41,087 nucleotides of DNA, from NCBI GenBank assembly GCA_001275005.1, contig JWZX01002711.1, positions 1 to 41,087 on the forward strand. Direction: 5' to 3'. The notes below the pieces were generated by a model. That model did not search any database and was not told the DNA's origin. It worked only from the letters and a program-made list of their open reading frames with translations. The translations under genes were made by a program, and so were the position numbers. Source of the DNA: Chrysochromulina tobinii. Lineage: Eukaryota > Haptophyta > Prymnesiales > Chrysochromulinaceae. Below are positions 2,481 to 19,610 of the stretch, piece after piece (position 1 is the stretch's first letter; each line of letters opens with the position of its first letter).

Positions 2481-3140
2481 CTACTTCCCAAGATCGAGGC
2501 TGTTTGTGGCGACGCGGCGAAGGGCGGCCTTCTGTAGAGCAGGACCAAGGCGGCCGCTGGCGATGAGGGGTCGGAGTCCGGGAGCGGCCTCGTCGACGCC
2601 GTCATTGAACCCACCAATGTATTGACCGCCGACCCAAATGTGAGGAATCGATGTGCGGCCTGTCATGGCGCCAAGCTCGGCAACGAGAGCAGAGCCATCC
2701 TCGCGCGTGTTCCACTCGACGGCCCGAAAGGGCACGCCCTCGCCTTCGAGCGTCTTCTTCGCGGCAAGACTGAAGGGGCAGTACGTGGCTGAAAAGATGA
2801 CGACATCGTCCCCAGCGAGGATGGCATCTAGCGTGGTCCGAGTTTTGGCCCGGTCGTAGTCTCCTGCAGCTTTGGTGGTCACCCAGCGCTTGACGGGATT
2901 GTTCACCATCCACATTGGCGCCGGGTGCTCTGTGAGCCATTTGCCCACGCCGTTGTACATCGCGCCAAAGAATCCCGGGTCCTTTTCCTGCAGATCGACC
3001 GCGCGTGCTCTCTGCGACGTGGCTGGCAGCATGACCGCCACCGTCTGGATGGCGGTTCGACGGCTTATGTGGCGAAGAGCCAGCGCACACGTCGATGGCA
3101 TGGCCAAGAGCACGAGCAAGCTCGCCAGAGAACGCGCCAT
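2481..3140 (-). CDS. glutaredoxin-domain protein with plastid/thylakoid-lumen type presequence
   Basis: A 219-residue thiol oxidoreductase. The glutaredoxin fold covers about residues 110-205: strand VVIFSATYCPFS with active site CPFS (C121), the cis-Pro loop TSIPHIWV, and the glutathione-site GG in YIGGFND. CPxS is the monothiol-type arrangement. The N-terminus looks multi-part: a hydrophobic signal-like stretch (SLASLLVLLAMPSTCALA), then SRRTAIQTVAVMLPATSQ ending in ARA, which reads like a twin-arginine thylakoid-lumen signal. This fits delivery into a complex plastid and possibly the lumen. The start is the ATG at 3140: the frame runs further upstream, but the signal-like stretch begins at this Met. 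A 20-bp perfect palindrome lies 90 bp upstream. Glutaredoxin identity is firm; lumen location is inferred. Confidence 0.85.
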   Translation of the reverse strand: MARSLASLLVLLAMPSTCALALRHISRRTAIQTVAVMLPATSQRARAVDLQEKDPGFFGAMYNGVGKWLTEHPAPMWMVNNPVKRWVTTKAAGDYDRAKTRTTLDAILAGDDVVIFSATYCPFSLAAKKTLEGEGVPFRAVEWNTREDGSALVAELGAMTGRTSIPHIWVGGQYIGGFNDGVDEAAPGLRPLIASGRLGPALQKAALRRVATNSLDLGK

Positions 3141-4397
3141 CTCTGCGCCGTCTTGAGCACACTGATGGCCTTGAGATTGCTGGAGGGTTTTCCGCCATTC
3201 CGCAGGTCTGTGAACGTTCGCGAGACGTAGTACAGTACATGTACTGTACACGTGTGTGTTTGTCAACGAGGCGACGCGACCCTGTGTCCCCGTGGCCTCG
3301 CCGCCCCGCCGCGGCTGCCGCGCGACTATGAGGTGCCATCTTCGACGACTAGGCCGATGAACCCGGCAACTGATGAACGTGCTGTCTACACCTTCGCCAC
3401 CCCCTCCCTCCCCGCCCCCGCCTCAATGCCTCAACGCACACCAGCTGTCGGCAACGCCCACTTAATCACAAGTGCCCGCAAGCATGGAAGAGGCCCATGT
3501 AGGTGCGACGCCCTGGCGACCATCGAACTCTGCTGCGCTGCTGCTGTGCTCTGCAGCTGCCGCCGTGCCGGACACGCTATGAGGAAACTCCATCTTCCGT
3601 AGATAGGGACAGATGACGCCTTATGGCGAATGATTCTGAAACTTCACTTGGCTGTGGTACTGAGCATTGTCCGCGCGCTTTCCGCTGGCCGCGGGCCTAG
3701 CTACAGAACTGGCCGCGAGCCTGGCTGCGGTTGCCGTCCCTTTGTGGCGCCCTGTGTGACGTCCCTGGGTGGCACCGCTCTGTGCACTACCAACAGCCTG
3801 TCCGCTGTTGGCGATTTCTATGTGAGCTTCGATCGAGAGGCCTGACCCTCCTCTGAACCTCATCGAGAGGGCGGAGCCACCGGCGCGTGCATACCTCGCC
3901 CGGCAGCTGCGTTGAGTGGCGGGTGGCGCTAGTGCCCTGATGAGCGTCGCACCTGCGACCACCTTCAGACTAGAGTATCCGAATCGCCCGTGTGCGAGAC
4001 TGAGGACCTCTGAGACCCTCTGAGCTTCGCGCCATCCCACCTGGCTGCTCGGCCTTGTGTGCTCTGCCCTGGCTGGCCTGGCCTGCACCCCATCTGCACG
4101 CTATCATCAACCTGGGCGGAGAGTCTTCATCCTCTGCTACGGGCTAAACCGGCTGTGCCACATTCACACCCCACGAAGCGCTTGCCATCGGCGAACCTCC
4201 AATGTCCCGCCGGTCTTCCTTTGCGCCCCGACATTTGTCTCACCGAACCCTCGTCCCTCGTCCCTTGGCCTCACTGTGTGCAGGCGACGGTCGTCGTTGC
4301 CGGCGGTGTCGCTTTGGCGGTGGCAGCAGGGGCGGCGGTGGAGATCAAGAGGTCGAGAACCACCGCTCACGAGGGCGCAATCTACAGCTGTACGAGG
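3141..4397. other. intergenic, no convincing gene
   Basis: Many short overlapping open frames on both strands, none with a recognisable domain or consistent codon bias. Apart from the palindrome at 3230-3249 no structure stands out. A small unrecognised gene cannot be excluded. Confidence 0.4.
3230..3249. promoter_or_regulatory. 20-bp perfect palindrome upstream of the glutaredoxin gene
   Basis: GTACAGTACATGTACTGTAC equals its own reverse complement. It sits 90 bp upstream of the glutaredoxin ATG and contains the TACATGTA octamer seen near other gene starts. It could bind a dimeric factor or be a promoter element; function is inferred from position. Confidence 0.4.
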
Positions 4398-10168: not shown

Positions 10169-10937
10169 GTAGGACTGATAACTCTTCTGAACCTGTCGCG
10201 GGCCGGCAAACCGCTCGAAGTGACCAACCCCTACCAACCCGGGGAAAACAATTCACGCTGACCATTCACAAAGGACGGGGAGGTTTCGCTACTCTCGTTC
10301 AGCCGAACGCCCGAATACGGACGTTTAACGTTTTCCGTTTACATGTAGACCGGCGCCCGCGACGGCGGCCGCACCGCGTCGTACACTTGTAGTAAGCGTT
10401 GTAACGTCCGACGACACGATAAAACACTAAACACGGCGGTTCGGCGCCGTCCTCGTCTTCGTAGTTTTTCAAGCAGAGGAGGGCGCATCTCTTCAAAACT
10501 CCACAATAGATAGTGATTAGACCCTCAGACCCGGGTTCCTCGCGACGGATATGCTCCGACCATCAATTGCCGACCATCTGCATTCATCTCTATGGGCGAG
10601 TCGGGACTCGGGTCTCGCTCTCGGGATGCTCATCGGATTCGAACATTCGATATCATGGGTAATTCATCTGCGAGACACACGTCTCAGCACATGTTCGGAT
10701 CGTTAAGGATCGTTCCCGCCAGTGCCGCGAAGTCTTCGTGATGAACCAAAACCCAACACTGAGTCAGAGTCTCTATCTCGGCAACACTGCTAGCGACTTG
10801 TAGTCAACATTTGCTCATATGAGCCGTTGGCCGCGTTTGGCAGTGTCAGCGTCATTTGTCTCTCATCCCGTGCGTGGCCGTGGCCGTGCTGACATCGTTT
10901 CCACCATGGGTTCAAGCGTGTGGCGATGGCATGGCAC
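10169..10937. other. CFAP57 upstream region and SelU 3' UTR
   Basis: No convincing gene. The left part should hold the CFAP57 promoter; TACATGTA occurs at about 10341-10349. The right part follows the SelU stop codon and must contain a SECIS element if the UGA is decoded as selenocysteine. Confidence 0.5.
10777..10818 (-). promoter_or_regulatory. candidate SECIS-like hairpin in SelU 3' UTR (weak)
   Basis: On the sense strand, about 120 nt after the stop, ATGA is followed by a hand-folded stem of about 12 pairs with two bulged A's (GCAAATGTTGACTA against TAGCAGTGTTGC), an 8-nt apical loop CAAGTCGC holding an AA near its 5' side, and then CGAG. This resembles the SECIS layout (AUGA, AA in the loop, GA on the return strand). 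It deviates by an extra C before GA, a slightly long AUGA-AA distance and several G-U pairs. It needs a covariance-model search. Confidence 0.25.
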
Positions 10938-11525
10938 TCAGGATCGGGCAAAGGAGGACAGCGCTGTCTTGAGCTCCTCCAGACGCGCGCCATGCACCGT
11001 GTCGCCCCAGCAACCCTCCTTGTGCTCATACGCGATAGCTCCTTCTGGTGAGAGAGCCCAGACGCCTCCGAGCTTGAAGCCCTCACCTTTCAGATTGCCA
11101 CTCACGCCCTTGGCGTTGGCACGCTCCAGATTTGTGGCCACGGCACCGCCCAACGAGTAAGAAAGGACGCCGCTCAACAAGCCTTGCTTCCCGGAGCCCA
11201 TCGTGTTGAACAAGCCCGTCTTTCCGAGGTCGAAGAACAGCTCACCTTTCCAATATTGGCCGTCCGTCTGCCAGTCTTGGTGGCCCAGGTGCTCGCCCGC
11301 CACCGCGATCAACCTCACAGGTGGCACACGGGAGTCGAGGAAGGTCTTGAGCGACGAGAGCTCCAAGGCCTCCTCCCGGCACAATTGTCAGCCTAGCCTC
11401 CTCACGAGCATGACGACCGCACCGCCGCCCTGGTAGAGCGACGAGAAGGCAATCGAAGCTCCGCTCAAATCGCTGACTGTCGCGCTGGCAATCTCAGCCA
11501 GCTTGTCTCGCACGTGCGTCGGCAT
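10938..11525 (-). CDS. SELENOU: selenoprotein U / peroxiredoxin-like 2 (PRXL2) with in-frame UGA
   Basis: A 195-residue thioredoxin-fold redox protein in one exon, if TGA at 11388-11390 is read as selenocysteine 46. Around it: AVVMLVRRLG-U-QLCREEALELSSL. Animal PRXL2A has VRRPGCFLCREEA at this place and fish SelU has Sec for that first Cys, so the UGA falls exactly on the redox-active residue of a U-x-x-C motif. The frame is open on both sides and the downstream half is typical for the family: YWKGELFFD, then GVSGNLKGEGFKLGGVW, then IAYEHKEGCWGD. The start is the ATG at 11525. The true stop is the TGA at 10938. A weak SECIS candidate follows in the 3' UTR. A pseudogene or sequencing error is possible but unlikely given intact flanking sequence. 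PRXL2 proteins are thought to act in thiol redox control. Confidence 0.9.
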
Positions 11526-12305
11526 GACTCCCCTTGAGTTCTGTAGCCAGTGACGAATGGTCACCAAATGGCACTCAAGGGTCAAGGCGACCCTGGCGGC
11601 GACATGTGGGGAAATGGGTGAGAGACTGATTTCATTCCAGCATTCCCCCGCAACCACCGCACAGCTCATATGACTTATATGACTTCATAACGATACAATT
11701 GTAGAGCGTAGGTCACCTCGCCGCGGGGCGGATCAAGGCGGATCACCGCGCTCGAGGCGGCGGCGGCCGAGCGGACGCGCGGCATTTTCCGGCGCGCACG
11801 CCCACGCCCCCTCTCGAGTCGCTCGCGAGTCGCGCTACTTTGGTCGAGCCCGTGCGTGCTCGGCCGGTCGCGCGGCATAGAGCTCGATTTTACCGACGCA
11901 TACATAAAGTAGCGAAGCCGACATGACTCAAGCCGCATGCGCCCGCGAGCGGCGACCGGACGCCCCCGGTCGCCCCCGGACCCGTCGCCGGCTTCGGTGA
12001 TGGTCCACCTCGGGCGGGGAACGTCTCTTTTCAGTCACCGCGGTTGTCCGCGCCGTATCCGCGCCGCCCCTTGCGGCGCCCCCCGTTTTTGACGCCTGAC
12101 GTTGAGGCCCGGTTGCCCCACTGTGATTATAAGGACCCTAAGCAGGCCCGGACCCGAGACGATGCAGCACACACACATACAATGCACCCCCCACAGACTC
12201 TCACATAGACTCTCACATCCTCTGCAACGATGGCCCACCCCGCATGCGCCCCGTGCGACAGTACTGCTGGTGCTGCTACTGCGCGCGCCGATCACGCTCA
12301 CTCGC
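11526..12305. other. intergenic, no gene seen
   Basis: Very GC-rich in places (11940-12100). No coding frame supported. It should contain the SelU promoter and the 3' UTR of the EF-hand-like gene. Confidence 0.5.
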
Positions 12306-18588: not shown

Positions 18589-18989
18589 TCCTCGGTAGGA
18601 AACGCCGCGGCGTTAAAAAGCCGGTCGATTGCATAAGGATCCGTCCATCGTACTTGCTCACGGAGAACGCAGCGCAGGGAAGCGCGTAGTGTGTGGTGAA
18701 AAACTTGCTGTGAAAACTTACTGTGATGAAAGGCGCAAATTGACTCGGAGCTCCATCCAGCTCACACAGGTTTGCGATGCCGCCGCGGACCGGCCTTCTC
18801 CTGCGACGGCGCGCGTCACGCTCCGTGGCCCATGGTCCGCGCCTGACGCGCATCGCGCCCTCGCGGCGACTACTCTGCCACTCTGCGACAGCAATCGATA
18901 CGTGACGCTTCGGAAGCGCCAACAAAGAAGTGCTCCACCGTGACCTTTGCTGCGCTCGTCTCTCTGTTGGCAGACCTACCGCCGTCAAA
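18589..18989. promoter_or_regulatory. shared upstream region of MFS (-) and light-harvesting (+) genes
   Basis: A divergent intergenic region of 401 bp without a supported gene. It must contain both promoters. No TACATGTA element occurs here. CAAAATGA at the light-harvesting start is a good initiation context. Confidence 0.5.
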
Positions 18990-19610
18990 ATGATTGCCGC
19001 TCTCGCCCTCCAGACCACCGCCTTCCAGATGCCGGCCCTCAAGGCCCCGACGCGCGCCATGGGCGCCTCCATGGGCTTCAAGGAGGGCGACATTGGCGTC
19101 CTCCCGCCGCTGGGCGTCTTTGACCCGCTGGGCCTCATCTCGTCGCGCGACATGCAGCGCTACGAGATTATGGAGATCAAGCACGGCCGCGCGGCCATGA
19201 TGGGCTTCCTCCATGTCATCCTGGTCCAGGGCGGCGCGCGCTTCCCGGGCTACCTGTCCACGTCGGCGGGCCTCAAGTTCGCCGATGTCCCCAGCGGCTG
19301 CTTCGAGTCGCTCGAGGCGCTCCCCACGGCGGCCTGGCTGCAGATCATGACGGTCACTTGCATGATGGAGTCGGGCTACTTCCTCTTCGAGGCGCAGGAC
19401 CCCAAGGGCGAGCCCGGCAACATTGGCGGCGAGGCCTGGGTGCGCTACGACGACCCTGCGACGAAGGCTTTCAAGCTTAACATTGAGCGCCAGAACGGCC
19501 GCGCGGCGATGATGGGCATCACCGGCTGCCTGGTCCACGAGCTCCTCGGTGTCAACGCCCTTTACCCGACGGGTGGCCTGGGCGGCGCGGCCCCGCCCAC
19601 CATTTTCTAA
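18990..19610 (+). CDS. fucoxanthin-chlorophyll a/c-binding light-harvesting protein
   Basis: A 206-residue plastid antenna protein in one exon that binds chlorophylls and fucoxanthin-type carotenoids in the thylakoid membrane. Helix 1 has EIMEIKHGRAAMMGFLHVIL (E and H ligands with the GRAAM core), helix 2 is WLQIMTVTCMMESGYFLFEA, and helix 3 has NIERQNGRAAMMGITGCLVH. The C-terminus GGLGGAAPPTIF is typical of the family. The N-terminus MIAALALQTTAFQMPALKAP is a signal-plus-transit type presequence with an AF motif near the expected signal cleavage site, as in secondary red-lineage plastids. The start is the ATG at 18990, whose CAAAATG context is good; upstream in-frame sequence does not resemble the family. 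Strong codon bias suggests high expression. Confidence 0.95.
   Translation: MIAALALQTTAFQMPALKAPTRAMGASMGFKEGDIGVLPPLGVFDPLGLISSRDMQRYEIMEIKHGRAAMMGFLHVILVQGGARFPGYLSTSAGLKFADVPSGCFESLEALPTAAWLQIMTVTCMMESGYFLFEAQDPKGEPGNIGGEAWVRYDDPATKAFKLNIERQNGRAAMMGITGCLVHELLGVNALYPTGGLGGAAPPTIF

Follow-up and report, generated by a model that had tools for sequence, protein, structure and literature searches.

The 41,087-nt window analyzed here (contig JWZX01002711.1 of Chrysochromulina tobinii assembly GCA_001275005.1; C1554 among the 2253 contigs of the 53 Mb assembly) carries two open frames on its minus strand that are parted only by a TGA codon. The question raised by this locus is whether that codon ends a protein, marks a damaged gene, or is read through within a single protein of the PRXL2/SelU family. 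Our answer, held with high confidence, is that this is one PRXL2/SelU gene whose in-frame UGA at 11388-11390 is predicted to be decoded as selenocysteine (Sec), likely by way of a predicted SECIS at 10855-10778, to give a predicted 195-residue selenoprotein. The features discussed below are as follows.

11526..11669, minus strand: upstream extension of the N-terminal open frame, most likely 5' untranslated given its poor conservation
10938..11525, minus strand: PRXL2/SelU coding sequence, 195 codons plus a TGA stop, with one in-frame TGA; assigned from the frame, the Pfam match, the PDB match and a conservation-based start
11388..11390, minus strand: TGA inside the frame at codon 46, where the (C/U)xxC motif begins (RRLG-U-QLC) and selenocysteine is predicted
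11379..11381, minus strand: TGC encoding Cys49, second and likely resolving residue of UxxC, invariant in the six family members of the genome
10938..10940, minus strand: terminal TGA of the protein, from the translation
10778..10855, minus strand: predicted SECIS, from a shape-based finder; Rfam SECIS_1 silent

Translation of the window gave one frame from 11525 to 10938 on the minus strand, with 195 residues and exactly one in-frame TGA. ORF calling with table 11 broke the gene in two, a frame of 93 aa at 11388-11669 and one of 148 aa at 10938-11384 that starts with TTG. The protein matched Pfam AhpC-TSA_2 (8.3e-13), and with phmmer an unbroken alignment over residues 19-163 was obtained to human prostamide/PGF synthase (9us9, 3.9e-17). 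There was no gap at codon 46 in this alignment, which placed U46 on C44 and C49 on C47. The single internal TGA and the ungapped homology across codon 46 agree with the initial annotation, which had joined the two open frames into one PRXL2 protein and had put the TGA at the first residue of the CxxC redox motif.

The same alignments bear on the suggestion that a short intron removes the TGA, which the initial annotation had named as an outcome that would count against selenocysteine. A donor-like GTGAGG string does lie just upstream of the TGA. Homology to the human enzyme and to the paralogues was continuous through codon 46, so that an intron there would delete the active site, and we assign this explanation next to no probability.

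A structure model was built with 22 sequences, from an alignment without P0005, P0021, P0022 and the N-terminal pieces; its mean pLDDT was 72.7, with residues 1-31 below 50. The best Foldseek matches of the model were the human synthase structures (9usa, 5.8e-11, and 9us9), of which 9usa is a C44S/C47S mutant according to the entry title, followed by PrxQ, other Prx and thioredoxin-like proteins such as ResA. Residue 46 was placed between a predicted strand (36-41) and a predicted helix (47-57). The human enzyme, PRXL2B, is the closest solved protein in both sequence and fold; it differs in having Cys where the algal protein has a Sec-type UGA, and structural alignments gave 24-30% identity.

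Public protein records showed the effect of the TGA on annotation. A search with the N-terminal open frame found nine public proteins, all of which (9/9) terminate in ...VVMLVRRLG, directly ahead of codon 46. Over the 45 residues from Met 11525, 40-45 of 45 were kept in each of the nine. Over the 30 positions upstream of that Met, compared with no gaps allowed, only 2-17 of 30 matched in eight of them, and 29 of 30 matched in the near-identical ninth. This drop, which extends to the 48 codons upstream of ATG 11525 in the first open frame, makes 11525 the most likely start of the protein, and selection seems to begin there and to continue to the stop. With the full protein as query, 24 relatives were found, 21 of which start after codon 46. 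Five of these (P0003 and P0023-P0026) start no more than two codons from codon 46, and the remainder start later; for many of the 21, contig ends or introns could be other causes of a late start. P0012 has Cys at the codon-46 site, and the N-termini of P0005 and P0021 could not be aligned. P0003, a JGI 'hypothetical protein' with 33 member sequences, is identical to the window protein save for the last residue. It corresponds to the 148-aa C-terminal piece, and the initial annotation had been right to expect that an ordinary gene caller would split the gene or cut it down to this part. No relative of P0003 was confirmed among viral contigs. The paralogue L005 gave a similar picture among its 11 relatives: the six N-terminal pieces all stop at RRMG, and the remaining five begin beyond the site. 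Since relatives end or start at codon 46 with both flanks conserved, the stop is present in other public sequences too, which are known as protein records from which the identity of the stop codon is not readable. The initial annotation had also named re-sequencing or transcripts with TGT/TGC in place of TGA as evidence against selenocysteine, and to this the other public sequences cut at codon 46 give an indirect answer.

These records can also be read to mean that the TGA is a genuine stop, and that a second protein, lacking the catalytic residue, is made from the downstream frame by initiation at TTG 11384 or at an ATG further on. ORF calling does return such a frame, and P0003 stands in the public protein set as such a fragment. 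A separate C-terminal protein would, in the predicted model, lose the first strand of the fold along with the catalytic residue. It would also leave unexplained the strong conservation, in 9/9 relatives, of the 45 residues before the stop, and the retention of R42, position 46 (U or C) and C49 in six family members. We regard this reading as very unlikely.

The assembly was found to hold six PF13911 loci, the window gene included, and five of the six have TGA at the catalytic column. The motifs around this column are listed here.

Window gene (contig C1554): LGUQLC
L001 (C1802): FGUMFC
L004 (C544): FGUVFC
L005 (C850): MGUPLC
L006 (C740): GAUIAC
L003, the sixth locus, Cys-type: FGCRFC

Identity of the other five members to the window protein is 16-25%, and the invariant columns in the alignment of the six were R42, position 46 (U or C), C49, D99, G153 and G154. 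The NCBIfam model NF040769 (SelL-related redox protein) matched all six at 31.1-94.1 bits, in each case below the cut-off of 120; the score of the window protein was 31.1 bits. A further difference from SelL is the motif, which is UxxC in the window protein and UxxU in SelL.

The position of the TGA on the catalytic column, its presence there in four of the five other family loci, and the truncation of public relatives at that codon are together more than chance would give. They bear directly on the proposal that the locus is a decaying pseudogene or contains a sequencing error, the TGA being a nonsense change in a once Cys-type PRXL2 gene. The family is Cys-type in many organisms, and Cys stands at this site in the relative P0012 and the paralogue L003, as this proposal would have it. 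The stop is a lone one with no accompanying frameshift. Four diverged paralogues also have TGA in this column, and the truncation of public relatives falls at this codon with both flanks conserved. Decay or error is therefore extremely improbable, and Sec decoding remains the preferred reading.

The initial annotation had reasoned that the gene implies a working selenocysteine system in the host, and the assembly upheld this: tRNA-Sec, SepSecS and SelD were found, together with many other selenoprotein genes interrupted by TGA. The Rfam tRNA-Sec model scored 70.7 bits on C2181 (gathering score 47), and passed its cut-off in 5 of 14 control genomes. ARAGORN gave this tRNA the anticodon TCA and drew two mismatches in the acceptor stem; it found no tRNA in the window itself. 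SepSecS was found on C322 (4.7e-170; over cut-off in 1/14 control genomes) and SelD on C157 (4.7e-86; 2/14). The presence of tRNA-Sec(UCA), SepSecS and SelD makes recoding of UGA likely. No eEFSec was found in the assembly with two Pfam models, a SelB model and a sequence motif, a search that could miss spliced genes; the two Pfam models also gave no match in any control genome. The SelB model had 16 matches, and the 12 that were fetched and read were rejected as eEFSec because they look like other translational GTPases, presumably of the EF-Tu, IF2, LepA, EF-G/EF-2 and eIF2-gamma types to judge from their motifs.

The selenophosphate synthetase on C157 (L018) shares a single long open frame with a preceding part that, as assigned by eye, resembles pyridine-nucleotide oxidoreductases. 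The synthetase has Cys (MRCGGCGAKVG) at the site where other SPS2 proteins carry Sec.

TGA was found inside all six SelW/T-type (Rdx) matches, two of which have the same open frames, and inside nine of the 13 GPx matches. Where the frame was read, these TGAs lie at CxxU and NVAxxU, the known Sec sites of the Rdx and GPx families, respectively. The two matching Rdx loci, L021 on C253 and L022 on C1490, share one SelT-like Sec open frame and may be haplotypes or a recent duplication. The Sec-type GPx set is a large one and comprises L026, L027, L029, L030 and L032-L036.

In-frame TGA in many genes is also what would be seen if the nuclear code read UGA as an ordinary amino acid throughout. Against such a reassignment, the codons fall, where read, at known Sec positions (NVAxxU, CxxU and UxxC), and the gene itself ends in TGA. 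TGA also ends 9 of the 12 open frames with an end in the fetched locus, which were picked by length and cannot alone show that internal TGA is absent. With tRNA-Sec, SepSecS and SelD also present, a reassigned code has a negligible probability. On the points given against each, all four rivals (code reassignment, pseudogene, intron and separate C-terminal protein) were rejected in favor of Sec decoding.

The 3' region was searched for a SECIS with a finder that looks for an ATGA quartet, a helix with 8 or more pairs (9 or more in the shuffle test), an AA lying 10-14 nt beyond the quartet, and a GA. On its coding strand the window's 3' region passed all four criteria, and on the opposite strand it did not pass. 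The candidate lies in the likely 3' UTR, beginning 82 nt beyond the stop codon, and consists of ATGA at 10855-10852, a 10-bp helix II, an apical CAAAC at 10839-10835, a long apical stem and GA at 10779-10778. The finder scanned 740 nt downstream of each gene, and its thresholds were set after candidates, including that of the window, had been seen.

The finder was run on 16 other Sec genes (L022, which has the same open frames as L021, L023 and L034 were excluded), on their antisense strands, on 104 other segments of the window, and on 100 segments from loci that had brought in no tested Sec gene, part of which are AT-rich and organelle-like. At an energy of -14 kcal/mol or below, candidates were found in 13/16 Sec genes, 0/16 antisense, 5/104 window segments and 2/100 other-locus segments; at a helix energy of -8.7 or below, the counts were 13/16, 0/16, 0/104 and 1/100. 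At the energy of the window candidate itself, 6/16 Sec genes passed, with none antisense, 1/104 window segments and 0/100 from other loci, and at its own helix energy 10/16 passed, with none antisense, 0/104 and 0/100. Three of the 16 (L006, L021 and L026) had no passing candidate. Among the paralogues, SECIS-like hairpins were seen downstream of L001, L004 and L005, and none downstream of L006.

When the 740-nt region was shuffled 2000 times by dinucleotides, a candidate of any kind appeared in 185 of the shuffles; the energy of the window candidate was reached in 15 and its helix energy in 10. Folded without constraints, the SECIS stretch was only mildly stable (z = -1.75), with 10 of 200 shuffles as good. 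Rfam found no SECIS in the 3' region (E up to 10) or in the whole window (gathering thresholds), and across the whole genome SECIS_1 gave none over cut-off and a single match of 20.3 bits against 35. A loose SECIS consensus pattern, with 124 matches against 86 expected, was of no use alone, and in a MAFFT alignment of 13 SECIS candidates the 3' side looked too badly aligned to support a covariance model. A lack of any SECIS in the 3' UTR had been named at the outset as evidence against the gene; the shape-based search offers a candidate at 10855-10778, and Rfam gives no call.

The predicted 195-residue selenoprotein would be a thiol-dependent peroxide reductase or oxidoreductase. UGA 46 is predicted to be read by an eEFSec/SBP2 complex with the help of the 3' hairpin. 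By analogy with the family, U46 would sit as a selenolate where the first helix of the thioredoxin fold begins and would reduce a (lipid) peroxide, Cys49 would resolve U46 as a selenenylsulfide, and thioredoxin or a similar reductant may recycle the active site.

The window gene resembles the SelU/SELENOU genes of fish, birds and algae in its AhpC-TSA_2 domain, its UxxC at the catalytic CxxC and its UGA codon. In the parts of the literature consulted, Sec-containing SELENOU is reported from over half of 36 algal genomes and counted among the most widespread algal selenoproteins, and Emiliania huxleyi is listed with 96 selenoprotein genes and one cluster of two SELENOU genes (PMC7539508). One SelU gene each is given for Ostreococcus tauri and O. 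lucimarinus and two for Thalassiosira pseudonana, along with five GPx selenoproteins in Ostreococcus (PMC2375036); Sec-type SelU of vertebrates is placed entirely in the SelU1 group (PMC3316567). As Sec-containing SELENOU is already described in print as widespread in algae, the window gene adds one case to the known algal Sec-type SelU and is a further example, not a new type.

The less usual and notable part, and the difference from SelU elsewhere, is the finding of five deeply diverged Sec-type PRXL2-family genes in one genome. No description of such a five-gene set was found in the parts of the literature consulted. Five of six members have a Sec-type codon at the same column despite identities to the window protein of 16-25% and motifs as unlike as FGUMFC and GAUIAC. 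On this pattern it is possible, if rather doubtful, that in this algal lineage the PRXL2 superfamily as a whole began with Sec as its catalytic residue and that Cys in animal SelU2/SelU3 and in plant relatives is derived. The five genes can be used to ask which Sec/Cys state is ancestral. The window gene adds a Sec-type PRXL2 to a selenium-rich algal genome in which five such genes were found, and the genome is a usable system for studying what advantage Sec gives to these proteins. The locus also shows how automatic annotation loses a catalytic residue, with the public set holding fragments that end just before the active-site codon and one that starts just after it.

Two other genes in the window were noted. 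At 18930-19607 on the plus strand there is a chlorophyll-binding antenna protein (Pfam, 8.3e-29), with 35 solved matches at 1e-20; these are light-harvesting proteins, mostly fucoxanthin chlorophyll a/c or chlorophyll a-chlorophyll c-peridinin proteins, and from these matches the host is likely a chlorophyll a/c alga. At 2484-3266 on the minus strand there is a glutaredoxin (Pfam, 6.2e-12) that is extended at its N-terminus and has the motif CPFS.
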